A stretch of 64,000 nt of DNA from an uncultured Halomicronema sp. Lineage in GTDB: Bacteria; Cyanobacteriota; Cyanobacteriia; Phormidesmidales; Phormidesmidaceae. Shown here piece by piece: positions 2,878 through 56,662 of this stretch. Under the pieces are notes generated by a model. It was not told the DNA's origin. It did not search any database and saw nothing but the letters and a program-made list of their open reading frames with translations. The translations under genes and the position numbers were made by a program. The stretch is from contig CALCCA010000072.1 in assembly GCA_937899725.1 (NCBI GenBank), positions 1 through 64,000 of the forward strand, read 5' to 3'. Position 1 is the first letter of the stretch. Every line of letters starts with the position of its first letter.

Positions 2878-4251
2878 TTAGCCCTGGTGAACGACAGGAC
2901 TGAGTAACTGGCTGGAGCGCTGCCAGAGGTCTTCCCACCAGGGATTGGGATCGAAGTTAGCTTCTCTGACATCTGGCAGGCGGCGGCGAATGTCGTTGAT
3001 ATCCCAACCGGTGAGACGGGCCAGGGTCTGCGCCTCTTGCTCAAACCGGGTAGGCAGCGATCGCCGATAGTCTGCCCCAGCCGAACAGGTGGCTTCGCCC
3101 AAAAAGGGCTGCTGCATCACATACCGCCCCTGAAAGAACTCTAGATTATTCGTCTGTTGAAACATCAGATCTTCGGGGAATTTGTCGCGGCTGTAGCGCA
3201 CGTGCAGGCGAGTTACATACACGTTGGTATCCCAAATGGAGCTGTTGGGAGCAAGCCAAAATACCCCAGCCTGGCGCAGTTCTTCAGGACTCAGCGGGTC
3301 TGCCGAGCAGGGGTCGCAGCCCGCCATGCTCCAGGCATATTCCAAAAAGGCGACCTCTTTGTTTTCACGCTCATAGCTGCGATCGAACATCGTGCCATAA
3401 AACTCGCCAAACTCCGCTTCTACAAACGAGGGAATGTTCGCATTCGAGGGAATTTTGACGGTGCGATAGTTGGTTAACTCGACCTGACCATCGGGCGTAA
3501 GCAGGTAGGCTACCAAATCTTGTGCACCCTGAGCATTCATCATGCCGAGACGAATCGGCAGCATAAAGCGCGGCGACTCGTAGGCGATTTGCAGTGGGCG
3601 TAATTGCTGAAAGCCGGTGCGATCGAACTCCTCTAGATTCACCTTGGCGACAAAAAACTTGAGACCCTGTCTTACATAGGGCTGCAGCAACTCACTCGCC
3701 CCAGTGGGAATTTGATAGCCGTTTTGAATCAGCCAGGTTTCTAGACCGTCCGATTCTTCGGCACTCAAAATTACGATGTCGTATTCGCCGACGGCAAACT
3801 GCGCTTCGACCGTGACGCCCAGCGCCCCATCGGCAGCGCGGCCTCGGGTGGTGGTCGCCTGGGGAGCGGCAGGCAACGCTTCGGCCTCATCAAACATCAT
3901 CATTGGTTCGCAGGGGTCGGGGTCAAAATATTCCACCAGGCGCGGGGCGCTGAAGTCATCGAGCCGCTGCACGATCGCCGGATCGCCCACATTCACCTGT
4001 CCTTCTTGCAGCACCGTGGGCACCGGTACCACCATGGCAAAATCGGCCACTTCGCCCTGATAGTCATTCGCCATTGTCAGCACGGTGCGATCGCCGTTGC
4101 GGGCAATGATCACCTGCGAGGCTTCGTTATACAAACTGGTATCGGCTTTAGCGACGTAGAAACCGCAGAAAGCCAGCGCGGTCGGCGTTAAAAATAGGAG
4201 CGCGGCGATCGCGCCCAACAGGCCAGTCCAAATCGAACGGTATTTAGTCAT
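2878..4251 (-). CDS. Secreted DUF2330 protein, copy 1
   Basis: 457 residues from ATG 4251; an in-frame ATG at 4278 would add nine polar residues ahead of the signal peptide and is less likely. A signal peptide (basic start, hydrophobic core, cleavage near ALA-FCGF) shows export. The mature protein starts with the DUF2330 pattern FCGFYVAKADTSLYNEASQV, then AMVVPVP and SAEESDGLETWL segments. Cysteines are few and placed as FCG near the start, DPCEP, GCDPC and ATCSAG. No transmembrane anchor follows. It is a clear paralogue of the next gene (4359-5780): the two share long identical stretches, so this is a tandem duplication. The function of DUF2330 is unknown; the conserved cysteines suggest disulphide or metal sites. 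It lies downstream of an RnfD-like gene. Confidence 0.85.
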   Translation of the reverse strand: MTKYRSIWTGLLGAIAALLFLTPTALAFCGFYVAKADTSLYNEASQVIIARNGDRTVLTMANDYQGEVADFAMVVPVPTVLQEGQVNVGDPAIVQRLDDFSAPRLVEYFDPDPCEPMMMFDEAEALPAAPQATTTRGRAADGALGVTVEAQFAVGEYDIVILSAEESDGLETWLIQNGYQIPTGASELLQPYVRQGLKFFVAKVNLEEFDRTGFQQLRPLQIAYESPRFMLPIRLGMMNAQGAQDLVAYLLTPDGQVELTNYRTVKIPSNANIPSFVEAEFGEFYGTMFDRSYERENKEVAFLEYAWSMAGCDPCSADPLSPEELRQAGVFWLAPNSSIWDTNVYVTRLHVRYSRDKFPEDLMFQQTNNLEFFQGRYVMQQPFLGEATCSAGADYRRSLPTRFEQEAQTLARLTGWDINDIRRRLPDVREANFDPNPWWEDLWQRSSQLLSPVVHQG

Positions 4252-4302
4252 CGTGGGGTCTCTTTCTAGGGGTGTCATTCAAAAAAATGGAATCGCAAGC
4301 CG

Positions 4303-4327
4303 GGGAACGATGCGTCTGACCGTTCCC
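4303..4327 (-). terminator. Hairpin between the two DUF2330 genes
   Basis: GGGAACG and CGTTCCC form a perfect 7-bp stem with an 11-nt loop. On the minus strand a run of seven T follows about 15 nt further on, not immediately, so it may be a partial terminator or a 3'-stabilising stem that sets the relative expression of the two paralogues. Confidence 0.4.
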
Positions 4328-4358
4328 TGAATGCGAGGTGATGCACATGTGCAACTAG

Positions 4359-5780
4359 TTAGGGCAATTGAGGCGGATAACGCAGTTGCCAAACCGAGGG
4401 CTGGGGCTGGGGGACCTCAGCACTGATGCGTCGCCGAATGGTGGAAAGGTCGCGCCCCGTCAAACGCGCCAGATTTTTTGCCTCTCGTTCAAACCGCTCG
4501 GGAACTTCATGGGCAATGTAGTTTTGATGTGATTGACGTAAGTATTCAATTTCTCTGTCGCTGAGAGCATAGCCGCGATATTCCGTCTTCTTAGCTAGAC
4601 AGGCTTGTTCGTTAGCATCGGCAAAGGCATGGTGCATCACGTAGCGCCCCTGAAACAAGCGACGATTGTTCGTTTCTTGAAAGGTCAAATCTTCAGGAAA
4701 TTTATCGCGGGTATAGCGCACGTGCAAACGCGTGATGAACACATTGAATTCCCACGGTTCCATGTCGTCTTCGAGCCAAAAGATACCGGCTTGACGCATC
4801 TCGTCCAAACTAGGCGGATCAGCTGCACAAGGGTCGCAGCCCCGCAAATCCCAGGCATATTCTAAAAACGCAATGTTGCGTCCTCGCTGTTCGTAGCTGC
4901 GCTGAAATAGCTCGCTATAAAACGGCCCAAATTCGTCCTGAATAAACAGGGGAATATCGGCGTTGCTGGGCACTTCCACCGTGCGGTAGTTAGTCACTTC
5001 GACCTGGCCTTGGGACGTCAGCAGATACACCACTAAATCTTGCGGCCCCTGGGCATTCGTCATGCCCAATCGAATCGGCAACATAAACCGGGGCGACTCG
5101 TAGGCAATTTGCAGCGGGCGTAGGCGTTGGTAGCCGGACTGGTCAAACTCGTCGAGATTCACCTTGGCGACAAAGAACTTCATGTCCTGGCGGATGTACG
5201 CGCCTAAGACTTCACTGGCACCGGTCGGAATCTGATAGTTGTTTTGTCGCAGCCAGGTTTCTAACCCGTTAGACTCTTCGGCACTGAGGATCAAGATGTC
5301 GTATTCCCCCGCCGAAAACGCCGCCTCAATTGTGATACCTAAGGCTTCTGCCAGACTCTGAAAAGCGCCCCCTGATTCTTCGGTGAGGCGATCGATAGTC
5401 GCCGAGGGATCTGCATCTATGCATTCAGCACAGGGCAGATAGCAGGGATCTTCATCAAAATATTCCACTAGGCGCGGGGCGCTGAAGGCATCTAGGCGAT
5501 CAATAATGGTTGACTCAGCGACATTTACCTGCTCCGGCTGAATCACCGTGGGTACCGGCACCACTAGGGCAAAGTCTTGCACCTCGCCCTGATAGTCATT
5601 GGCCATCGTCAGCACGGTGCGATCGCCGTTGCGCGCAATCATCACCTGCGAGGCTTCGTTATACAAACTGGTGTCGGCTTGGGCGACGTAGAATCCGCAA
5701 AAGGCCCAGGCTGAGGGCGCAAAGATCAGGCAGGCGATCGCAACAATTAACCCCGTCGCCAGGGGACGCAAACGTTTCAT
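4359..5780 (-). CDS. Secreted DUF2330 protein, copy 2
   Basis: 473 residues from ATG 5780, chosen because the preceding 34 codons of the open frame overlap the neighbouring gene while a typical signal peptide (MKRLRPLATG start, cleavage near AWA-FCGF) begins here. It is a paralogue of the gene at 2878-4251, with the same order of segments: FCGFYVAQADTSLYNEASQV, ALVVPVP, ILSAEESNGLETWL, SPRFMLPIRLGM, GCDPC. It carries an extra insert with CYLPCAEC and a longer C-terminal region (the YALSDREIEYLRQ segment). The mature protein is predicted to be periplasmic or extracellular. The RnfD-like gene ends 73 bp upstream, on the same strand, so the three genes are likely one transcript. Its role is unknown. 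Confidence 0.85.
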   Translation of the reverse strand: MKRLRPLATGLIVAIACLIFAPSAWAFCGFYVAQADTSLYNEASQVMIARNGDRTVLTMANDYQGEVQDFALVVPVPTVIQPEQVNVAESTIIDRLDAFSAPRLVEYFDEDPCYLPCAECIDADPSATIDRLTEESGGAFQSLAEALGITIEAAFSAGEYDILILSAEESNGLETWLRQNNYQIPTGASEVLGAYIRQDMKFFVAKVNLDEFDQSGYQRLRPLQIAYESPRFMLPIRLGMTNAQGPQDLVVYLLTSQGQVEVTNYRTVEVPSNADIPLFIQDEFGPFYSELFQRSYEQRGRNIAFLEYAWDLRGCDPCAADPPSLDEMRQAGIFWLEDDMEPWEFNVFITRLHVRYTRDKFPEDLTFQETNNRRLFQGRYVMHHAFADANEQACLAKKTEYRGYALSDREIEYLRQSHQNYIAHEVPERFEREAKNLARLTGRDLSTIRRRISAEVPQPQPSVWQLRYPPQLP

Positions 5781-18326: not shown

Positions 18327-18438
18327 ACTAGTACTCCAAAGCAGCAGTAAGACGGCTATTCCAGTTCTCTGGCCCCTTTGCCCCCAAGGCTCCCTAGTCA
18401 TTGGCAATGGTTGGTGAAATCACGCCTCAGTCTACTAG
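18327..18438 (-). repeat. 112-bp dispersed repeat, copy A
   Basis: On the minus strand this begins CTAGTAGACT and runs to GTGATTTCACC, GGGAGCC and GGAGTACTAG. It aligns over its full length, with a few substitutions and single-base gaps, to 46201-46312 on the plus strand. Neither copy has a shared open reading frame, so it is a non-coding or relic element. Confidence 0.85.
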
Positions 18439-45954: not shown

Positions 45955-46429
45955 CCCTAGATTTTGTCCTTCGCGCTAACAGAGTCTACAGCCTCTAGGG
46001 CATGTAATCCGGCCATTGCCACCCTGATGTCATCAGAGTTTGTGTACCCAGGGCGATCGCCACAATTGTCATCTAGGCGAAAAGTGTCGCAAGATTCAAA
46101 CTGAGGGACATCAGCTCAAAAGCCCGGCTACCGACCGCTAAAAACACGATGGCATAAGCACTGCTCAAGGGGCCGCCCGATCACGTCTTAGCCCATCAGC
46201 CTAGTAGACTATGGCGTGATTTCACCAACCATTGCCGATGGCTAGGGAGCCGTGGGGGCAAGGGGGCAGAGAGACTGGCATGGTCGTCTTATCTTCTGCC
46301 GTGGAGTACTAGGAAAATTTATTGCTGAGTGGGCGACCCTACCAAAGTTTAGGCCACACTCAGAAAGTTTAAGGAGCTGCCTGCTAGGGTTGAGCATACT
46401 TTGCCCTCGTCGTTACGAAGCCTCGCCTT
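45955..46429. other. Intergenic stretch with dispersed repeat copy B
   Basis: 475 bp between divergent genes. The repeat at 46201-46312 fills its centre. The remaining sequence has no recognised gene; the radical SAM promoter probably lies after the repeat. Confidence 0.5.
46201..46312 (+). repeat. 112-bp dispersed repeat, copy B
   Basis: Plus-strand partner of the repeat at 18327-18438. It starts CTAGTAGACT, shares the stretch GCGTGATTTCACCAACC with copy A and ends GGAGTACTAG. It lies between two unrelated genes, with no open reading frame shared by the two copies. Confidence 0.85.
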
Positions 46430-47580: not shown

Positions 47581-47607
47581 GACGTTGCTTTGGCAAAGGA
47601 ACTCACT

Positions 47608-47823
47608 ATGAACATTCGTCAAGAGCTTTCCCTTGAGCAGCAGTTTGAGCTGCGAGTGTTTGAGGAGGAGGTTCATCAGCTGTCTCAGGCCGATGCTCAG
47701 GCGTTGCTGGTGCATCTGCGAGAAGCCATGATCTATCAGACCAATTCCTTTCGAGATATTTTGAAAGAAACTTGGGGCATTGAGCGCAGTACAGATGACT
47801 TGGTCAACGACCTGTTGGCCTAA
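47608..47823 (+). CDS. nblA: Phycobilisome degradation protein NblA
   Basis: 71 residues from ATG 47608, which has AAGGA seven bases upstream; an in-frame TTG at 47590 adds six residues without homology. The sequence ELSLEQQFELRVFEEEVHQLSQADAQALLVHL is the NblA/Ycf18 core, followed by the usual REAMIYQTNSFRDILKETWGI. NblA is a small helical adaptor that binds phycobiliproteins and directs them to Clp protease during nitrogen or sulphur starvation. Its presence shows that the organism has phycobilisomes. It is monocistronic; a structured repeat begins 42 bp after the stop codon. Confidence 0.93.
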   Translation: MNIRQELSLEQQFELRVFEEEVHQLSQADAQALLVHLREAMIYQTNSFRDILKETWGIERSTDDLVNDLLA

Positions 47824-48184
47824 TTCTCGATCTTGAAATATACCCTGCTGTCAGGTTGTCTTGTCCCAATCCTCTGAAACTGGGCTCCAGATCTTCCTTT
47901 CGACTCCGCTCAAGGAACGTCGGCTTAGCGGAGTCGTCAGCCCGACGGGCAGGCCAGGCCAACACGCAGGGTCTCCTACTGGGAGAGAGCCGGTTTGCAT
48001 GGGTAGCTGTAATTCGTAGAACTGGTATTACTTTCCTCTGTCGGCTCTGACTCACGACATGAGTCGGCAAACGGAACAACACTACCCCAGGTTATTGAGC
48101 CCGGGCTGAAAACCCCATTGCCGCTGTGACTGTTTAGAAGGTTCAGGTCGCCAAACATCGGCCAGAGGGCTTTTCCAGCACCCT
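47824..48184. other. Intergenic stretch with structured repeat copy 1
   Basis: 361 bp between convergent genes, mostly filled by the 166-bp structured repeat. Beyond it lies a short GACTC/GAGTC stem near 48050. No gene is recognised. Confidence 0.5.
47865..48030 (+). repeat. Structured intergenic repeat, copy 1
   Basis: About 166 bp, running from CCCAATCCTCTGAAACTGG to AGAACTGGTATTA. It aligns along its whole length to 54508-54672, with substitutions but almost no gaps. It contains a perfect 10-bp hairpin (47901-47910 with 47927-47936, 16-nt loop), a GCCC/GGGC stem and a TCTCC/GGAGA stem. The copies lack a common reading frame. Confidence 0.88.
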
Positions 48185-50350
48185 CTAAACCACGTATGTC
48201 GAGGCGATCGCGGGCAAGCGCTGTAGCGCCACCAGAGCTTGGTAAATCGCCACACACACCTCTGCCCTGGTAGTGACCTGATTAGGGCGCAGAGCCTGCC
48301 GGTCGGGATAGTTGGCGATTAAATGCTGCGTGATGGCCACTGAGGTTTGTTGCAAGCCGTAGCGCGGTAGCGTGGAAGCGTCAGCAAAGGGGCTGAGCAC
48401 GAGCGCGTCGGTGGGGAGGGTGGCCCAATCGAGGCCGTTGACGAGGGCCACCCAGGTTTGCACCCGCAATAGAGGATGTTCGGGAGCAAAGGTGAGATCA
48501 GGAAAGCCTGCCATAAATTCACCTCGACAGGCTTGTTGAATGGCGGCGGCGGCCCAGTAGTCCGACGGCACATCTTTGAACTGCAGTGCTGGTTGTATGG
48601 GTACCGGCTGAAACGCGTTGACGATCAGAGTGGCAAACTGAGCGCGAGTGATCGCGTCGTCAGGAGCAAATCGACCGTCTTGCCGGCCCGTGACTAGATT
48701 GACTGCGGCTAATCCTTGAATAAAATCGCGGGCCCAGTGTGCTGTCAGGTCGCTAAACAGCGGCTGCGTCGTATCGGGTCGAACGATGTAAGGCGAGGCG
48801 ATCGCGGTTGATGTGCCAACGGCGACTCGCCCCTGATAAATCAACGCCGCAACGGCACCGCGAGTCATCGTTTCTAATGGTCGCAGCTGTATCGGGTCAG
48901 GATAGTTAACCACGAGTCGCTGACGGGTTGCGGTTGAGAGGGCATCGACGGCATAGCTAGGAATCTGCGCGCGATCGCGATAAATGCCCACATCATCCAC
49001 CCGGCCACCCGTGAGTTGGAGGCCATTCGTCACCGCCACGATGGCTTGAATCCGCGTGATTGGTTCATTGGGCCGTAAGGTGCCGTCTGGAAAACCGCTA
49101 AGAAACCCCCTCCGCTGCGCTTGAGACAGCGCTGTATAGGCCCAAAAGTTGGGGGAGACATCGGTAAAGCGCTGGGGCGCGGTTTGCTCGGGGACATCGG
49201 GAAAGTTGGCCACGATCAAGGCCGCAAACTCGGCGCGAGTGAGCGATCGCTCCGGCCGAAAGGTCCCATCAGTAAAGCCTGCGACCGTTCTCGCCTGGGC
49301 CAAACCATCGACGAAAGGCCCAGCCCAGTGTCGCGCCATATCGCTGAATTGGATAGACCCTTGAGGGAGTGACGGCGACTCCGAAGCCTCGGCTCCGCCG
49401 GGCTCAACTGGCTTGCCAGCGGCCCAACTCGCGGGCTGATCAAACAGTATCGGGGGCACCGCTGCGGGGTCGGGTCGGGCGCTGGCGATCAGGTCAACGC
49501 GCCCCTGAATGCGTTGGGGCAACACGTCATTCCCGCAGGAGACCAGCGATCGCCCGCTGTCGTTTTTAATATCCACCGTGCCATTGCGGTGCACAATGTT
49601 GTGGCCGAGGTCTTCAGCTTGGCCAAAGTCGGCGGTGGCTTGGCCCGTCAGCGTCAGGCCCACCGTCTGATTTTGCCGAATCCGATTGTGGCGGAGCACT
49701 GGGTTGGCGGTATCGGCGATGGCGATGCCGGTTACATTACGTTCTAGGCCGCAGGACAGAATCAGCGGCGCGGCGGAATCTTGAATCAGCAGAGCCGTCT
49801 GATTTTTTTGACAAAAGACCCGTTCAAACTGGCCCTTGCTCTGGGTAAACCAGGCGATCGCCGTCCCGCAGTCTTCAAACACACAGTCTTGAACCAAGGG
49901 CAGCGCTTTACCCAGCGTCACGGCGCCATACTGCGGACATTTCATCACGACCACCCCGGCCAATTGAGGTCGCCCCTCGGTGAGCAACAGGCCGATGCCC
50001 TGCGCCTGGGTGTTAATGATGGTTACCTGGTTGAGTTTGGCCCCATCTTGCAACACGCTGGCGGCGACCTGGCTACCCAGCACCGGATGCTGTACCGGGC
50101 CACTGCCCTGCACGATCGCGGTAGGCCGGCCCCCCCCCGGTTGACCCACCAGTTCACACCCCGACGGAATGACTAAGGGAAACTGTTCACCACTGTTAGC
50201 GGTGTAGAGCCCTGCTTGGAGCTGTATCTGCGTGTCACCCTGGCTCAGCCGTAATGCGGCAGTAATGGTTTTGAGGGGTTGATTGGTCGATCGCCCCTCG
50301 CGATTGTCCTGTCCCTGAGCGGGATCGACGTAGAGCACCTGCTGAGCCAT
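48185..50350 (-). CDS. DUF1565-SLH protein (beta-helix plus S-layer homology repeats)
   Basis: 721 residues from ATG 50350; a longer frame starts at 50422. Residues about 1-300 are a right-handed beta-helix-type region (DUF1565): YVDPAQGQDNREGRSTNQPLKTI opens it and repeated short strands follow. Residues about 325-720 are several SLH repeats: FSDMARHWAGPFVDGL, GFTDGTFRPERSLTRAEFAALI, FTDVSPNFWAYTAL, FSDLTAHWARDFI and FKDVPSDYWAAAAI. SLH repeats usually tie proteins to the cell wall, but neither start gives a signal peptide, so the location is unclear. It converges on nblA; deoC lies upstream on the same strand. Confidence 0.9.
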   Translation of the reverse strand: MAQQVLYVDPAQGQDNREGRSTNQPLKTITAALRLSQGDTQIQLQAGLYTANSGEQFPLVIPSGCELVGQPGGGRPTAIVQGSGPVQHPVLGSQVAASVLQDGAKLNQVTIINTQAQGIGLLLTEGRPQLAGVVVMKCPQYGAVTLGKALPLVQDCVFEDCGTAIAWFTQSKGQFERVFCQKNQTALLIQDSAAPLILSCGLERNVTGIAIADTANPVLRHNRIRQNQTVGLTLTGQATADFGQAEDLGHNIVHRNGTVDIKNDSGRSLVSCGNDVLPQRIQGRVDLIASARPDPAAVPPILFDQPASWAAGKPVEPGGAEASESPSLPQGSIQFSDMARHWAGPFVDGLAQARTVAGFTDGTFRPERSLTRAEFAALIVANFPDVPEQTAPQRFTDVSPNFWAYTALSQAQRRGFLSGFPDGTLRPNEPITRIQAIVAVTNGLQLTGGRVDDVGIYRDRAQIPSYAVDALSTATRQRLVVNYPDPIQLRPLETMTRGAVAALIYQGRVAVGTSTAIASPYIVRPDTTQPLFSDLTAHWARDFIQGLAAVNLVTGRQDGRFAPDDAITRAQFATLIVNAFQPVPIQPALQFKDVPSDYWAAAAIQQACRGEFMAGFPDLTFAPEHPLLRVQTWVALVNGLDWATLPTDALVLSPFADASTLPRYGLQQTSVAITQHLIANYPDRQALRPNQVTTRAEVCVAIYQALVALQRLPAIASTYVV

Positions 50351-50784
50351 TATGTGTGGATTAACCGCGCGAAGTAAGCAAAACTGCCGCCAGTCTGGTG
50401 TCAGCGATCGGACTGGCAGCATCTAAAACCGACGAGAGGGCGTCAAGGTCGACCACTCTGATTCAGCGGCTGGCCACTTTCATCCGCCGCCCGCGATCAC
50501 TCCCGCCGGGGCCGCTAACTGACGTTGCGGAGTGATCACGTCAATGCGCCAAAATTCTACTGCAGGTTCTCTCATCCTCGCCTGGGCGGTTCGGTAAATC
50601 TACAAACTTTATCGACATCAAGCTTTGGGAACCCAGTTGGCGGAGCGTTTTGGCAATATCGTCATGACCGTGAGCGACATGACCGTGAGCGATGCCGAGC
50701 GGCAAAACCAACCACAGGTGCTGCAAAGGTCAACCAGACGGCAAGTGCAGGCATGGGGAGCACTCTGGGTGAGCGTTAACGGAT
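50351..50784. other. Intergenic stretch with a short tandem repeat
   Basis: About 430 bp between two minus-strand genes. It holds two perfect tandem copies of a 15-mer (50663-50692). No gene recognised. Confidence 0.4.
50663..50692 (+). repeat. Tandem 15-bp duplication
   Basis: CATGACCGTGAGCGA occurs twice in direct succession without mismatch. Confidence 0.9.
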
Positions 50785-51477
50785 CTACCGCTCAGCTAAG
50801 GCGGCCTGCTGCTGCACCAATTCTGGCCCTCGTGAGGTGCCAATGCGGGTGGCCCCCGCCTGCACGAGTTGTAGCGCCTGCTCAGCGGTGCGAATCCCCC
50901 CCGAGGCTTTAATGCCCACCTGGCCGTGACCGATTTCGCTTAGTTGGCGCACCGCTTCGACCGTAGCGCCCCCCTGCCAACCGGTGCTGGTTTTGAGAAA
51001 GCTGGCACCCGCATCTAAACAAATATCAGCGGCAATTTTGATCTCTTTTGGCGTCAACAAACTCGTTTCCAAGATTGTTTTGACCAGCGTGCCCGTGGCT
51101 TCGCAAATTTCCGCAATTTCACGATGCAGGCGGTCATGCTGCCCCGACTTAAGCCAGCCTAGGTTGATCACGACATCCAATTCCGTCGCCCCTTGCTCGA
51201 CCGCATCTTGGGCTTCGTAAAGTTTGCTGGCGGCGGTCGTGGCTCCAGTGGGAAAGCTAATCACCGTACAGATGGCCACGCCTTTGCCCTGCAACTGCTC
51301 GCGGGCAAGGGCCACGTGGGTCGGCGCGATGCAGACCGCCGCGAATCGGTAGCGATCGCACTCCCGACACCAATGCATCACTTGCTCGGGTGTCGCGGTG
51401 GGAATCAAGAGAGAATGGTCGATGAGGGGGGCCAAATCAACTTGGGGCAACTCTGTATAAGCGCGATAGCTATCCAT
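50785..51477 (-). CDS. deoC: Deoxyribose-phosphate aldolase
   Basis: 230 residues. The class I aldolase barrel is complete: [17 protein letters not shown] at the start, [55 protein letters not shown], the Schiff-base lysine in SFLKTSTGW, and [10 protein letters not shown] near the end. The enzyme cleaves 2-deoxyribose-5-phosphate to glyceraldehyde-3-phosphate and acetaldehyde in deoxynucleoside breakdown. ATG 51477 precedes the conserved sequence by about 13 residues. No other deo gene is nearby; it is transcribed divergently from the glycosyltransferase cluster. Confidence 0.96.
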
Positions 51478-51640
51478 CCACCACCTGCGAGGAAGAATTG
51501 GTTATCCAACGGATATTAATTTACCGTGAATCTTCGGGCACAAGACCGACCGAATTCGTCGTCATTGAAGAGAATGCCAGCCGCAACGGGAATGCTTAAG
51601 GCGAGCTGACCCGCTTTTGAGCGAGAGGAGTAACCACCCT

Positions 51641-52567
51641 ATGCCCCCGACTCGGATCTCAGCCATTATCTGTACGCACAACCGCGAAGATTATCTCGGC
51701 GCGGCGATCGACAGTTTGCTGGAGCAAGATTTTGCCGACTACGAAGTGCTCGTGGTGGATAATGCTTCTACCGACAGCACGCGGGCCATTGTTGAAGCTC
51801 GCCTGCCTCATCCCCGGCTACAGTACGTCTATGAAGCCAACCTCGGCCTCTCTGTCGCGCGTAATGCCGGCGCGGCAGTGGCCACAGGTGAAATTCTCGC
51901 TTACCTAGACGACGATGCCGAAGCGAGCAGCGGCTGGTTGACGGCCCTGGCACAGATTTACGAGCAGGACACCACGGTGGCGATCGCGGGCGGCAAAGTG
52001 ACGCTGATCTGGCCCCCCAACTGCACCCCACCGAAATGGATGTCAACGGGGATGACGGGCAACCTGGGCGCTTATGACCTCGGGGATGAGCTCGTTTACA
52101 TCGAGCAGCCGGGACTGACCCCGAGAGGCCTCAATTATTCCATCACCGCTGACTTTCTTGAAAAAATCGGCGGCTTTGACGTCAACTTGGGCCGCGTCGG
52201 CAAAAACTTGCTGTCAAACGAAGAGCTTTACATGACCGAAAAAGCTCTCAACATGGGCTACCGCGTTGCCTATCTACCCGACGCCCTAGTGGCCCACAAC
52301 GTCGCCCCGAGTCGCATGGTGCCGACCTGGTTTATCCGGCGTAGCTGGTGGCAAGGCATTAGTGAGTGTTACCGCGAACGGGTGGCCGGTCGTTCGGGCT
52401 GGAAGCAGCTGCAATCAGGGGGAGAGCGACTGATTCGCGGTCTCTACAAAACGGTTAAATATCTGCCCGATCCGGCCCAGCGGTTTGAAAACATGCTCTA
52501 TGCCTACGGCCAAGTTGGGTATCTTATCAGTGCTATTCGTGGTTTGCTGCGCCCAGCCTCAGGCTAG
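51641..52567 (+). CDS. Glycosyltransferase family 2, polysaccharide cluster gene 1
   Basis: 308 residues from ATG 51641, with GAGGAG about 10 bases upstream (a TTG at 51617 is less likely). GT-A fold: ISAIICTHNREDYLGAAIDSLLEQ starts the nucleotide-binding domain, VLVVDNASTDSTR follows, YLDDDAEAS is the DxD metal-binding motif, and GRVGKNLLSNEE lies near the catalytic base. There is no membrane anchor. It begins a plus-strand run with another GT2 and a WcaF-type acetyltransferase. The arrangement resembles the hormogonium polysaccharide (hps) genes of filamentous cyanobacteria, where HpsE is a GT2 of this kind; this is inference. Codon use and HIP1 sites match the host genome. Confidence 0.9.
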   Translation: MPPTRISAIICTHNREDYLGAAIDSLLEQDFADYEVLVVDNASTDSTRAIVEARLPHPRLQYVYEANLGLSVARNAGAAVATGEILAYLDDDAEASSGWLTALAQIYEQDTTVAIAGGKVTLIWPPNCTPPKWMSTGMTGNLGAYDLGDELVYIEQPGLTPRGLNYSITADFLEKIGGFDVNLGRVGKNLLSNEELYMTEKALNMGYRVAYLPDALVAHNVAPSRMVPTWFIRRSWWQGISECYRERVAGRSGWKQLQSGGERLIRGLYKTVKYLPDPAQRFENMLYAYGQVGYLISAIRGLLRPASG

Positions 52568-52681
52568 GCAGGCTCACTGGCATGGGCTTAGGCGCTATCG
52601 GCCCCCTACATTAACTGCCAAATTGACTGCCACCCAGTGGCTATTCGTTCAACCCCTATCCTAATTACTTCAAAATCTGCT

Positions 52682-53638
52682 ATGTCCTCTAAAATCCCCG
52701 TTTCTGTTCTCATTCCTGCCAAAAATGAGGAGTCTAACCTCCCGGCCTGCCTAGAGAGCGTAGCCCGCGCCGATGAAGTATTTGTGGTGGATTCGCAAAG
52801 CGAAGATCGGTCGATCGCCATTTCTGAGGAGTATGGCGCTCAAGTGGTGCAGTTTCATTTCAACGGTCGCTGGCCCAAAAAGAAAAACTGGTCGCTTGAT
52901 AACCTGCCCTTTAAGAATGATTGGGTGCTCATCGTCGATTGCGACGAGCGCATCACGGAGGAACTGTGGGACGAAATTGAGCAGGCCATTCAAAAGCCTG
53001 ACCACAGTGGCTACTATCTGAACCGCCGGGTGTTTTTCCTCGGTAAATGGATTCGCTTTGGCGGCAAATATCCCGATTGGAATCTGCGCCTATTTCGCCA
53101 CGCCAATGGCCGCTACGAAAACCTCAATACCGAAGAAATTCGTAATACCGGTGACAACGAAGTGCATGAGCACGTCATCGTAGAGACGGGTGAAGTCGGC
53201 TATCTGAAAGAAGATATGCTACATATCGACTTCCGCGATCTCTATCACTGGCTGCAGCGCCACAATCGCTATTCCAACTGGGAGGCGCGGGTTTACTACA
53301 ATATTCTCAACGGCATGGCCGAAGATGGCACCATCGGTGCCAATCTGTTTGGCGACTCGGTTCAGCGTAAGCGGTTTCTGAAAAAGATTTGGGTGCGCTT
53401 ACCCTTTAAGCCATTCCTCCGGTTTATTCTGTTCTATTTCATTCGCCTTGGGTTTTTGGATGGCCAGGCTGGCTACATCTACGGTCGCTTGCTGAGCCAG
53501 TATGAATATCAAATTGGCGTCAAGTTGTTTGAACTCCAAAAGTTTGGCGGACAGCTCAACGTCAAACAAGGTGCCGACGACGCGGCGGCGACGACTGATG
53601 AGTCACCCGCGATCGCACCCGCCAACGTGCAAAGCTAA
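52682..53638 (+). CDS. Glycosyltransferase family 2, polysaccharide cluster gene 2
   Basis: 318 residues from ATG 52682; a GTG at 52637 would add 15 residues outside the conserved domain. VSVLIPAKNEESNLPACLESV begins the GT-A domain, FVVDSQSEDRSIAISEEYG is the donor-binding region and VLIVDCDERIT contains the metal-binding DxD motif. The middle part, RLFRHANGRYENLNTEE and HIDFRDLYHWLQRHNRYSNWEA, is typical of WaaE/KdtX-like and related GT2 enzymes that glycosylate lipid-linked cores. It follows the first GT2 by 114 bp and precedes the acetyltransferase by 8 bp, so the last two are tightly coupled. Confidence 0.9.
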   Translation: MSSKIPVSVLIPAKNEESNLPACLESVARADEVFVVDSQSEDRSIAISEEYGAQVVQFHFNGRWPKKKNWSLDNLPFKNDWVLIVDCDERITEELWDEIEQAIQKPDHSGYYLNRRVFFLGKWIRFGGKYPDWNLRLFRHANGRYENLNTEEIRNTGDNEVHEHVIVETGEVGYLKEDMLHIDFRDLYHWLQRHNRYSNWEARVYYNILNGMAEDGTIGANLFGDSVQRKRFLKKIWVRLPFKPFLRFILFYFIRLGFLDGQAGYIYGRLLSQYEYQIGVKLFELQKFGGQLNVKQGADDAAATTDESPAIAPANVQS

Positions 53639-53646
53639 CCGTTGTC

Positions 53647-54294
53647 ATGGCTTCTTCTTCTGACCGTTCTCCGTCTGACCGTTCTCCGTTGCCGGACGCA
53701 AAGTCCATCCCTGACGAACCCTGGCAGCCCGGGATTGGGGCCCCAGCGCGGATTGATTTGCGCCAGTATGACCAGTCTTGGTACTCACCGGGCCGCTCGA
53801 AGCCTTGGATTCTGCTGTGGTGGCTAGTGCAGGCAGTGGTTTTTCCCCTCACGCTGCATGCTCACCACGCCCCTCGGCGTCTGTTGCTGCGCTGGTTTGG
53901 GGCTCGCATTGGCCGCGGGGTCGCCATTCGACCCTCAGCCCGGTTTCACTATCCTTGGAAGATTGAAATTGGTGACTACAGCTGGGTGGGCAGCGGCGTG
54001 GAGTTTTACAGTCTGGGTCCAATTCGGCTCGGCAACCACACCGTCGTCTCGCAAAACACCTATCTCTGCACCGGCTCGCATAATCCCGCTGATCCGGCTT
54101 TTGGGCTGCAGGTAGCCCCCATCGTGCTCGAAAATGGGGCCTGGATAGCGGCGAATTGCTTCATCGGTCCCGGCGTGACGGTGGGGGCCAATAGCCTGGT
54201 CGGGGCGAGAAGCAGCGTGTTTACGGATCTGCCTGCTGATTCCATTTGCCTGGGCAGCCCCTGCAAGCCTCGCAAGCCTCGCGTTTTCAATTAG
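53647..54294 (+). CDS. WcaF-type serine acetyltransferase of polysaccharide synthesis
   Basis: 215 residues. The C-terminal two thirds is a left-handed beta-helix of hexapeptide repeats (VAIRPSARFHYPWKIEIGDYSWVGSGVEF and IAANCFIGPGVTVGANSLVGARSSVF), with the putative catalytic His in TGSHNPADPAF. A hydrophobic stretch (WILLWWLVQAVVFPLTL) lies before it, as in WcaF homologues. It likely acetylates a sugar unit; cyanobacterial hps loci carry a similar gene (HpsU), which is an inference here. The N-terminus holds a SDRSPSDRSP repeat made by a perfect 15-bp duplication (53659-53688), so the first 20 residues are probably disordered. It starts 8 bp after the GT2 gene. Confidence 0.9.
   Translation: MASSSDRSPSDRSPLPDAKSIPDEPWQPGIGAPARIDLRQYDQSWYSPGRSKPWILLWWLVQAVVFPLTLHAHHAPRRLLLRWFGARIGRGVAIRPSARFHYPWKIEIGDYSWVGSGVEFYSLGPIRLGNHTVVSQNTYLCTGSHNPADPAFGLQVAPIVLENGAWIAANCFIGPGVTVGANSLVGARSSVFTDLPADSICLGSPCKPRKPRVFN
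53659..53688 (+). repeat. Tandem 15-bp duplication in the acetyltransferase 5' end
   Basis: TCTGACCGTTCTCCG occurs twice in direct succession, encoding a repeated SDRSP motif. Confidence 0.92.
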
Positions 54295-54793
54295 AGCGTG
54301 TCGCGATCTAGAAAACGCCCTTCATTCAGTCCGGCTGCCAGTACAAATCGACTGGGAACTTTCATGAGCTGAATCGGACTTAACCTGACGGTGAGTTGCT
54401 GAAATCAACGGCTTCAGACTCTGTACCTATCTTTCCATGATTTAAGCATTGGCATGATTAGAGGCGATCGAAATCTGTACCCAGATTAGGAAATCCCTCC
54501 TTAAATCCCAATTCTCTGAAACTGGACTACAGCCCTTCCTTTCGACGCTGCTCAAGGAACGTCGGCTGAGCGGCGTCGTCAGCCCGACGGGCAGGCCAGG
54601 CCAACCCGCAGTGTCTCCGACTGGGAGAAAGCCGACTTGTCTGGGTAGCTGTCATTTGTAGAATTGGTATTAGTGGATGCGGTTATCGCTTGATAGACAT
54701 CCCTGATGAAGCGGTCATAGATGCCTGCGAGTGCTTGATGATGGCAGCCGTAATCGGTCCGGTTCGCCGCACACATCGGCAACCTCATGGTCA
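54295..54793. other. Intergenic stretch with structured repeat copy 2
   Basis: About 500 bp between convergent genes, with the second copy of the structured repeat at 54508-54672. Nothing else recognised. Confidence 0.5.
54508..54672 (+). repeat. Structured intergenic repeat, copy 2
   Basis: Partner of 47865-48030 in the same orientation. Its hairpin (54543-54552 with 54569-54578, same 16-nt loop) keeps pairing although both arms changed: T-A in copy 1 is G-C here and C-G is T-G. The smaller TCTCC/GGAGA stem is also kept. It lies between two convergent genes, as copy 1 does. Confidence 0.88.
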
Positions 54794-56662
54794 TCATGCA
54801 CTTTCGCTAGTAACTGTTCGGCGAACCGGAATTTGAATAATAAACTCGGCCCCCTCACCGAGCGAAGAACGGCAGGTTAATTGGCCGCCATGTCTCTCAG
54901 TCACAATTTGGTAGCTGACCGCTAATCCCATTCCCGTGCCTTCGCCAACAGACTTGGTGGTAAAGAACGGGTCGAACATCTTTTGCTGCACCTCTGAAGA
55001 AATGCCTGGCCCGTTATCGGCGATCGTAATCTGCACCCACTGCTCGTCAACGAGAGCAGTCTGCAGGGTAATCTGACCGAGTCTGTTCGTCGGCGCTTGT
55101 GATGTTGGCGGCGTCCTCTCGGCGCTGAGCACTTCGATCGCGTTAGTCAGAACATTCAGAAATACCTGGTTCAGCAATCCGGCATAACATTCAACCAGTG
55201 GCAGGATTGCGTAATCTCGATGAACTCGAATTTCAGGTCTATCGGCTTCCGCTTCCAGTAGATAGCCCAAAATCATCAGCGTGCTATCGAGCCCTTCGTG
55301 GATGTCAACCAGTTTGATATCAGCTTCATCAAATCGGGAAAAGCTGCGGAGCGAAAGCACAATTTCACGAATGCGATCGCTGCCAGTCTTCATAGAATCC
55401 AGCGTTTTCGGTAAGTCGTTTTGAATAAATTCTAAATCAACGTCTTCAGCTTCAGCTCGGATTTCTGTGGTGGTGATAGGACACTGAGCTTGATACATTT
55501 TCACCAAACCCAATAAAGCTTCTACATAATTCTGAACATAAGCTAAATTGCCGTGAATAAAATTGACCGGGTTGTTGATTTCATGGGCGATGCCAGCAAC
55601 AATTTTTCCCAAGCCAGACATTTTTTCACTCTGGACTATTTGCGCCTGAGTATGACGTAATTCTGCTAACGTAGATTCCAACTGCTGATTCGTAGTTTCA
55701 CGCTGAGCCAGGAGCTGATTGACAAACTTGAGATGGGTATTAAAAGTCTGAGCTAAGATACCGGTCTCATCATGACTACTCACCGGCACTTGAACATCAA
55801 AATTAGCCTGTTGAATTGACTGCTGAACAGTGTGCGTCATGGTTTGAAGAGGTCGTAATAGAACACGACTGATGAGAATCATCAACAAAACGCCAATCAT
55901 TCCAGAGATGATCGTGCTCGCTAATATAATTTGAAGCTGTGTTCTGCTGGCTTGTTGAAAAACCGCTGCCGCCTCTGCCTGTTCATCGGCTGTGGCGTTG
56001 GCCAACTCTGTCACTTTATCGATGAAACCGTTTAGATTAGTAATGAACTCGTTTTGATTTAACTCTAGTAATTTTGGTTGCAGTGAGAGTAGCTGATCCG
56101 GCGTGTATCCGAGCAGATCGGTTTGCTCAAACAGTGTATTGGCCTGTCGAATGTAGTTAGTGACAATAACCTCGTAATCTTCTAAAAGATCGGCGGCAAT
56201 TTTTGCTTCCGCCTCAGTGACTTCGTCAGATTCCTCGGCTTCATTAAATTCATCAGAGTCTTTGAACTCTTCCCAGTTTCTTTTGAATCTTTCATGGGCA
56301 ACTCTGAAATCAGATAAATCTGCTTGGCCTGCCTCAAGATTGCCTGCTTGAAAGTTTTTTAATGTTTCATCTTTGTGAACTAGAAGGGTTAACAGGCTTT
56401 CCTTCAAGCTAATAACGTTTTCTACATCCTCAATTGCTTCGGCTTGCATGTCACGAGCGGTTTGTTCAATATTCCTGCCTACGAAAAAGCCGGTCGCAAT
56501 CCCCGTGGATGATACTAAAAATGCCGAAATATATCCGGCAACAATTTTTTTGTTTAATGACCAATGACTAAAGCCAGAGAAGACGCTGGTATGAGGACGA
56601 TAAAGCGAGTGCTTTATTTCAGGCTCAATTGGAATTTGCAGGACGGTAGACTTGTTGGTCAT
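54794..56662 (-). CDS. Membrane sensor histidine kinase
   Basis: 622 residues. Two membrane helices, at about 38-60 and 243-266, flank a helical extracytoplasmic sensor domain of about 180 residues rich in Glu, Asp and Gln. A HAMP-like region and a coiled coil ([19 protein letters not shown]) follow. The H-box is [12 protein letters not shown], with an intact His, in the style of HisKA kinases with a HEINNP motif. The ATPase domain has [21 protein letters not shown], and [12 protein letters not shown]. It should autophosphorylate and signal to an unlinked regulator. No response regulator is adjacent. Stimulus unknown. It converges with the polysaccharide cluster across the structured repeat. 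Confidence 0.92.

Follow-up and report, generated by a model that had tools for sequence, protein, structure and literature searches.

Direct repeats in a Halomicronema contig as probable insertions of a short noncoding element with IS630-type ends

What keeps a pair of structured repeats in a cyanobacterial genome, function as an RNA or mobility as DNA? The question is raised by contig CALCCA010000072.1 of an uncultured Halomicronema sp. (assembly GCA_937899725.1), whose first 64,000 nucleotides (the window) were analyzed here. The window contains two direct repeats of approximately 165 bp (positions 47864 to 48030 and 54506 to 54672), which have the same orientation and are 88% identical over 167 nt. 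A preliminary description of this DNA reported in each copy a 10-bp stem with a 16-nt loop (47901 to 47936 and 54543 to 54578) and a second stem, TCTCC/GGAGA; between the copies, the fifth stem pair changes from T-A to G-C and the seventh from C-G to T-G. We found all of these features as described. Because two copies alone cannot distinguish selection from shared ancestry, we looked for the family to which they belong. The pair very probably represents two old insertions of a noncoding, nonautonomous miniature inverted-repeat transposable element (MITE) that was probably moved by an IS630-type transposase and whose interior would be cargo. Comparison of sequences shows that the copies have common ends and a 3-bp TNA duplication and that a sister species lacks insertions present here.

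Family members and their boundaries

The Halomicronema genome (7.0 Mb in 216 contigs) gave at least 45 match rows for copy 1, with the query itself and fragments counted and 40 of 168 first-look candidates scored, and the repeat thus recurs far beyond chance; a further copy lies on the same contig just beyond the window (64103 to 64265). Comparison of copy 2 with 39 genomes yielded matches in five, namely, the Halomicronema genome itself, three of the same genus (G002, the sister species; G004; and G005), and one of the same family (G011). In an alignment of 41 Halomicronema copies, a TNA marks the limit of similarity at either side, and one end repeats the other in inverted form, as in MITEs. 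These terminal inverted repeats are bipartite and approximately 30 bp long (TACCARTTCTC, about 9 bp, and then GCTACAGAT). The end sequence TNATACCARTTCT occurs 177 times (77 + 100; 100 of the 177 places were listed) in the Halomicronema genome, versus 0 for the reversed control, and is present in 9 of the 10 relatives tried, including 70 occurrences in G012 and 33 in G002; the counts in G003 (1 versus 1 for the control) and G006 (6 versus 3) are not clearly above the control.

Pairing of left and right ends at distances of 70 to 420 bp gave 113 pairs, or 103 after removal of duplicates, with one pair at locus L144 left out. Eight of the 103 were dropped for lengths that are not element-like (the one of 112 bp at L139 is perhaps genuine), and 95 were used. 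TNA is present on both sides in 86 of these 95 pairs and is identical in 75 of the 86, compared with a mean of 29.3 and a maximum of 45 in 20,000 shuffles. The length of this target-site duplication, a further mark of MITEs, is evident from 93 flank pairs, where identity extends over 3 bp in 74 and over 4 or more in none. The Halomicronema genome contributed 74 of the pairs used (65 flanked by TNA at left and right, 56 of them identically; no insertion was counted twice), and the other genomes contributed 21 (21 and 19, respectively). Identical TCA or TGA makes up 12 of the duplications. A TA duplication was rejected because these identical TCA/TGA duplications exist and because the empty site described below has no extra TA.

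The site of a copy on contig C187 is empty in G002, with a single TTA: G002 reads GGAGC-TTA-ACGGCG, versus GGAGC-TTA-(164 bp)-TTA-ACAGCG in the Halomicronema genome. At the copy 2 site, G002 reads CCTCC-TTC-GTGGATGCG, versus CCTCC-TTA-AA-element-TTA-GTGGATGCG, and carries 13 further bases beside the unoccupied position. The copy 1 site is not covered in G002, whose contig stops inside the neighboring gene; in G001, G004, and G005, the flanks of copy 1 are 66 to 73% identical, and the intervening stretch is only 76 to 86 bp shorter. For copy L024, no usable empty site was found. The earlier suggestion of a mobile noncoding element is thus supported by a genome-wide family with terminal inverted repeats and a TNA duplication.

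Length classes of 164, 140, 114, 188, and 100/101 bp have common ends. The 164-bp form, to which both window copies belong, has the same hairpin half as the 140-, 114-, and 188-bp forms and a different middle; the 100/101-bp forms share only their ends with the other classes, and their interiors are unrelated. The range of 100 to 188 bp falls within the size of MITEs (70 to 300 bp), and coding capacity is lacking as judged from reading frames in the two window copies, where the open reading frames (ORFs) of at least 70 amino acids overlapping copy 1 and copy 2 are not alike. Two Halomicronema copies, L077 (in the core) and L118 (in the 5' arm), have an internal segment that lies inverted between short inverted repeats, as might result from inversion between the arms or from template switching.

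Copy 1, placed by self-comparison, genome search, family alignment, and end pairs, is a 164-bp element on the plus strand with its hairpin end at the left (47864 to 48027). The sequence and the family alignment define its left terminal inverted repeat (47864 to 47893, plus strand; TCCCAATCCT..., decayed TACCAATTCT), its right one (47998 to 48027, minus strand, reading TACCAGTTCTACGAATTACAGCTAC), and the right duplication TTA (48028 to 48030); the left duplication (47861 to 47863) has decayed to TTG in the register of that alignment. The stem arms (47901 to 47910 and 47927 to 47936), located from the sequence and the hairpin counts, enclose the core motif TTCGACTNCGCTCA. Copy 2, placed by self-comparison and the G002 comparison, is likewise a 164-bp element on the plus strand (54506 to 54669). 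The family alignment and the sequence give its left terminal inverted repeat (54506 to 54535, plus strand), the sequence alone its right one (54640 to 54669, minus strand, reading TACCAATTCTACAAATGACAGCTAC), and the sequence and hairpin counts its stem arms (54543 to 54552 and 54569 to 54578). Its right duplication is TTA (54670 to 54672; family alignment and G002 comparison), and its left junction (54501 to 54505) is TTA plus an extra AA, a decayed duplication at which the unoccupied site of the sister species has TTC.

Convergent ORFs flank both copy 1 (47590 to 47823, plus strand, and 48185 to 50422, minus strand) and copy 2 (53647 to 54294, plus strand, and 54794 to 56662, minus strand), as previously noted. 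Our ORF heuristic instead sets copy 1 within a 92-amino-acid ORF that spans it (47804 to 48082, minus strand), which we take to be spurious. By the same heuristic, convergent placement does not extend to the family as a rule: among 30 copies, 14 lie between tandem genes, 8 between convergent genes, 1 between divergent genes, 6 within short ORFs, and 1 at a contig edge. Since these contexts depend on the heuristic, the single divergent site among the 30 is no more than a hint that such sites are underrepresented.

IS630-family elements with the same ends

Through one end variant of the Halomicronema genome, TACCAATTCTCTAGATTCCGGCTACAGAT, we arrived at a 1,141-bp element of Leptolyngbya sp. SIO4C5 (G022) that has MITE-type ends, TAA/TAA flanks, and two overlapping frames with helix-turn-helix (HTH) and DDE_3 (PF13358) domains. 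Its DDE part scores 147 bits against the NCBIfam IS630 model (cut-off, 100). With NF033545, the DDE parts of L105 and L107 score above the cut-off, and the HTH part of L107 scores below it (82 versus 100). By sequence, the partner is therefore an IS630/DDE_3 transposase. In L105, a run of seven A residues, ATAAAAAAACTC, lies where the two transposase frames overlap, a resemblance to elements using programmed frameshifting.

Public genomes contained 24 related loci, of which 13 are cyanobacterial with at least 60% identity; the latter come from five genomes (six loci from one Microcoleus metagenome-assembled genome and four from Leptolyngbya Heron Island J) and so are not all independent. In this first cyanobacterial set, the ends were located by the pattern TNATACC, with one end mismatch in a few places. 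One end lies 16 bp beyond the end of the matched ORF in 12 of the 13 loci, the remaining one (L187) lacking its 3' end. The other end was found in 7; 5 loci run off the contig, and L185 starts near the expected place, with no end seen. Both ends are present in 6 of the 13, and 4 of these 6 have identical TNA. Of two relatives in the same genus, L107 has identical TGA/TGA and L108 differing TTA/TGA. From 407 plasmid records with a match, ten were fetched and nine could be scanned, the tenth (Salinibacter) lying too near the start of its record. Seven of the nine have TACC ends and identical TNA, L241 has TAA/TTA, and L245 has none; in L242 and L247, the TNA reading taken had a lower score than a longer repeat whose end is shifted. 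Since these scans scored inverted repeats and duplications together, individual plasmid cases may be over-read. Altogether, identical TNA, including TCA and TGA, flanks 12 of the 17 cyanobacterial partner elements with both ends found.

A pattern scan of the transposase relatives L090, L091, L092, L109, L110, and L111 revealed no such end pair. Among the 11 distant noncyanobacterial loci, 8 were rescanned: L189 (Phycisphaerae) has TACGGATTC ends with TGA/TGA, L190 (Deltaproteobacteria) has TACCATTTTCG TACC ends with nonidentical TTA/TAA, and the other six had nothing callable as ends. L189 and L190 hint at TAC/TNA elements beyond cyanobacteria.

In two respects, the partner departs from its family. 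DD34E is the usual IS630 spacing. The D2-E distance is 34 residues in L091, another IS630 of the Halomicronema genome, versus 31 in L105, L107, and L108, and the partner is accordingly not DD34E-like. Its target is also not TA, as judged from the identical TNA of 12 of the 17 elements counted above, TCA and TGA included, and from the empty MITE site. For comparison, PMC9977792 assigns DD34E to one IS630 element, PMC8533490 states a TA target as a rule for the IS630/Tc1/mariner group, and TA was seen in the Photorhabdus IS630-type system (PMC6267812).

Within the Halomicronema assembly, contigs C9, C26, and C171 stop 51 to 54 bp inside a MITE-type end, and the reverse strand there reads (R)DSILDALSVAGI-stop, similar to the C terminus of the G022 transposase (ASILEALSVAGI-stop). 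A fourth place with the end, on C8, has another neighboring frame. Ends in common with an autonomous element, as expected of a MITE, are thus found through the elements of relatives and these three contig ends.

The hairpin and rival explanations

The changes that keep the stem paired had been read as a sign of selection on an RNA or a cruciform. This reading was not supported by the larger sample, in which one of ten pairs shows an association and 26 of 67 copies have a broken pair. The sample comprised 67 hairpins (55 distinct) from the Halomicronema genome, collected without gaps and at 40 or more consensus-like bases out of 52, a threshold that favors intact stems. All ten pairs are formed in 41 of the 67, and at least one is broken in the other 26. 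Pair 5 is associated between the arms (47 T-A, 9 G-C, 7 T-C, and 4 G-A; Fisher P = 1.2e-4), and for the other nine pairs a double change was seen in a single copy, at pair 7. Variability is lower in the loop (0.028) than in the arms (0.043 and 0.063). In the set drawn from every locus (103 ungapped hairpins with 36 or more of the 52 bases), pair 5 is paired in 86, versus a shuffled mean of 70.4, and the other nine pairs are at the level of the shuffles. A structured RNA would show compensatory changes at several pairs; here they are confined to one of ten. The second stem, TCTCC/GGAGA, is mostly invariant, with no double change among its commonest forms (the loose pattern used picked up unrelated matches as well). 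Because the copies form a star-like tree, with three supported pairs, independent compensations at pair 5 cannot be counted; weak selection, an inherited allele pair, and arm-to-arm copying could each account for the association.

That the repeat is a structured RNA family, i.e., a bidirectional terminator or regulatory RNA with a functional hairpin under selection, consequently appears very improbable to us. It would accommodate the fully paired stem of most copies, the pair-5 association, and the 8 of 30 convergent contexts, but nine of ten pairs lack covariation above shuffles, more than a third of the copies (26 of 67) break a pair in a stem whose loop is the less variable part, and the sister species has no copy at two comparable sites. 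The folding energies of 147-nt pieces on four strands (z scores of -0.3, -1.2, -1.5, and -2.0) are not unusual in three cases. No Rfam family reached its gathering score across the window, the best weak match near copy 1 scoring 14.8 bits (39 required), and no T run directly follows the stem in either window copy. The covariation counts and the missing T run led us to drop the RNA/terminator reading. Nothing pointed to termination or to processing by a nuclease, for neither of which a direct test was made.

The hairpin also bears on whether the repeat is a repetitive extragenic palindromic (REP) or REPIN-type element, moved by RAYT, an HUH tyrosine transposase, with the hairpin as the mobility signal. 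Its core motif, TTCGACTNCGCTCAR, occurs in 38 of 59 genomes, the Halomicronema genome included (0 to 1 control matches per strand), with a maximum of 258 matches in G004, where the MITE search gave 2. The ten stretches read (L219 to L228, from G008, G037, G051, G005, and G033) contain stem-TTCGACTNCGCTCA-stem hairpins, mostly as inverted doublets, whose stems vary while the loop is almost constant; in G037 and G051, the doublets lie, by eye, within another repeat with ends near GGAGATTTC. Inverted doublets resemble REPINs. In REP/REPIN systems, however, the mobile unit is a single palindrome with a RAYT partner, and HUH elements are not known to make a target duplication of the kind found here. 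In the present case, terminal inverted repeats and a 3-bp duplication delimit the unit, and the same ends surround the unrelated interiors of the 100/101-bp class. A REP/REPIN origin of the whole repeat seems to us the least probable of the readings considered; the core motif alone may have an origin through RAYT, for which no search was made. Since the motif is dispersed also without the MITE, the MITE hairpin would most simply be a captured dispersed palindrome. We also find it hardly credible that the same MITE is moved by another transposase (e.g., of the IS5/PIF type, for which 3-bp TNA-like duplications are known) and has come to resemble IS630 ends by convergence. TNA is unusual for IS630, and no intact partner is assembled in the Halomicronema genome, but elements of the IS630 family carry such ends, with the identical TNA counted above, and their transposase ORF finishes inside or beside the end.

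Several observations nevertheless weigh against the preferred explanation, a MITE mobilized by an IS630-type element. An intact transposase of this kind is absent from the Halomicronema assembly, where the search gave three weak matches (34 to 38% identity), none of them between paired ends in a pattern scan; its presence in this genome therefore rests on the three contig ends, and the missing body is likely due to collapse of a multicopy element at contig ends. No transposase match at an E value of 1e-10 was found in G002 (rich in the 114-bp form; fragmented and 90% complete). Mobilization in trans is inferred from the common ends. The left ends of both window copies are decayed, their duplications are imperfect (TTG/TTA in copy 1; AAA, or TTA plus AA, versus TTA in copy 2), and 11 of the 86 TNA pairs differ between sides. 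Finally, the pair-5 association is real and lacks a detailed explanation.

In the mechanism that we propose, an IS630-family element that shares the approximately 30-bp ends would supply a DDE transposase to bind the MITE ends in trans, move the MITE, and insert it at TNA, which would be duplicated. The interior, including the double-hairpin core on TTCGACTNCGCTCA, would be cargo, i.e., a dispersed palindrome that exists also without the MITE, and the pairing of the arms would mostly be inherited from this palindrome. The concerted change at pair 5 could have arisen by interarm copying or inversion, which left possible traces in two copies, rather than by selection on an RNA.

Other repeats, known systems, and significance

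Two other repeats were observed in the window. A second dispersed repeat (18348 to 18438 and 46201 to 46291) has 91-nt arms that are 84% complementary, lie in opposite orientation 27.8 kb apart, and seem by eye to span CTAGTACTCC to AGTCTACTAG. The segment from 3103 to 5730 is a tandem duplication with a spacing of approximately 1,520 bp and pieces that are 71 to 79% identical, probably a duplicated gene.

The mode of action would be analogous to those of RUP and MITEPlu5, in which a short passenger carries the ends of a resident IS630-type element. MITEPlu5 of Photorhabdus luminescens, a 123-bp repeat with hundreds of copies, is portrayed in PMC6267812 as noncoding and structured, with ends like those of a subset of resident IS630-type elements, as here; going by that description, MITEPlu5 duplicates TA, whereas the present MITE duplicates TNA. 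RUP of Streptococcus pneumoniae (approximately 107 bp; 110 copies in one genome), as summarized in PMC3049150, is a MITE with IS630-Spn1-like ends for which movement in trans has been proposed, as here; by the same summary, RUP is AT rich and from another host, whereas the present element has a GC-rich double-hairpin core. Nezha is described as a cyanobacterial MITE with ISNpu3-like elements as proposed movers (PMC3049150 and PMC3733652), a likeness by description only. The short dispersed palindromes among the small dispersed repeats and REP-like sequences of cyanobacteria, as described in PMC3733652, resemble the present hairpins by that description, and the core motif TTCGACTNCGCTCA may be one of them; they differ in that the present mobile unit is set by terminal repeats and a duplication. 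Neither a TNA-duplicating IS630 element nor this MITE appeared in the titles and opening lines of abstracts searched among openly licensed papers, ISfinder lying outside this scope. The unusual feature is TNA, compared with TA in published IS630/Tc1/mariner elements. We raise tentatively, as a somewhat doubtful possibility, that the partners form an undescribed IS630 clade with a TNA target instead of TA, DD31E, and ends starting with TAC, which is widespread in cyanobacteria and maybe in other phyla.

These results carry the caution that pairing changes between two copies of a palindrome-based repeat are weak evidence for RNA function. A suspected RNA becomes a mobile element, and its insertions at known sites that are occupied in one species and not in another can serve as markers of strain history. 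Several unrelated MITE interiors seem to make use of one end type. Should the TNA target of the IS630 clade prove real and undescribed, setting this clade against relatives specific for TA would allow tests of what governs target choice in the IS630/Tc1/mariner group.

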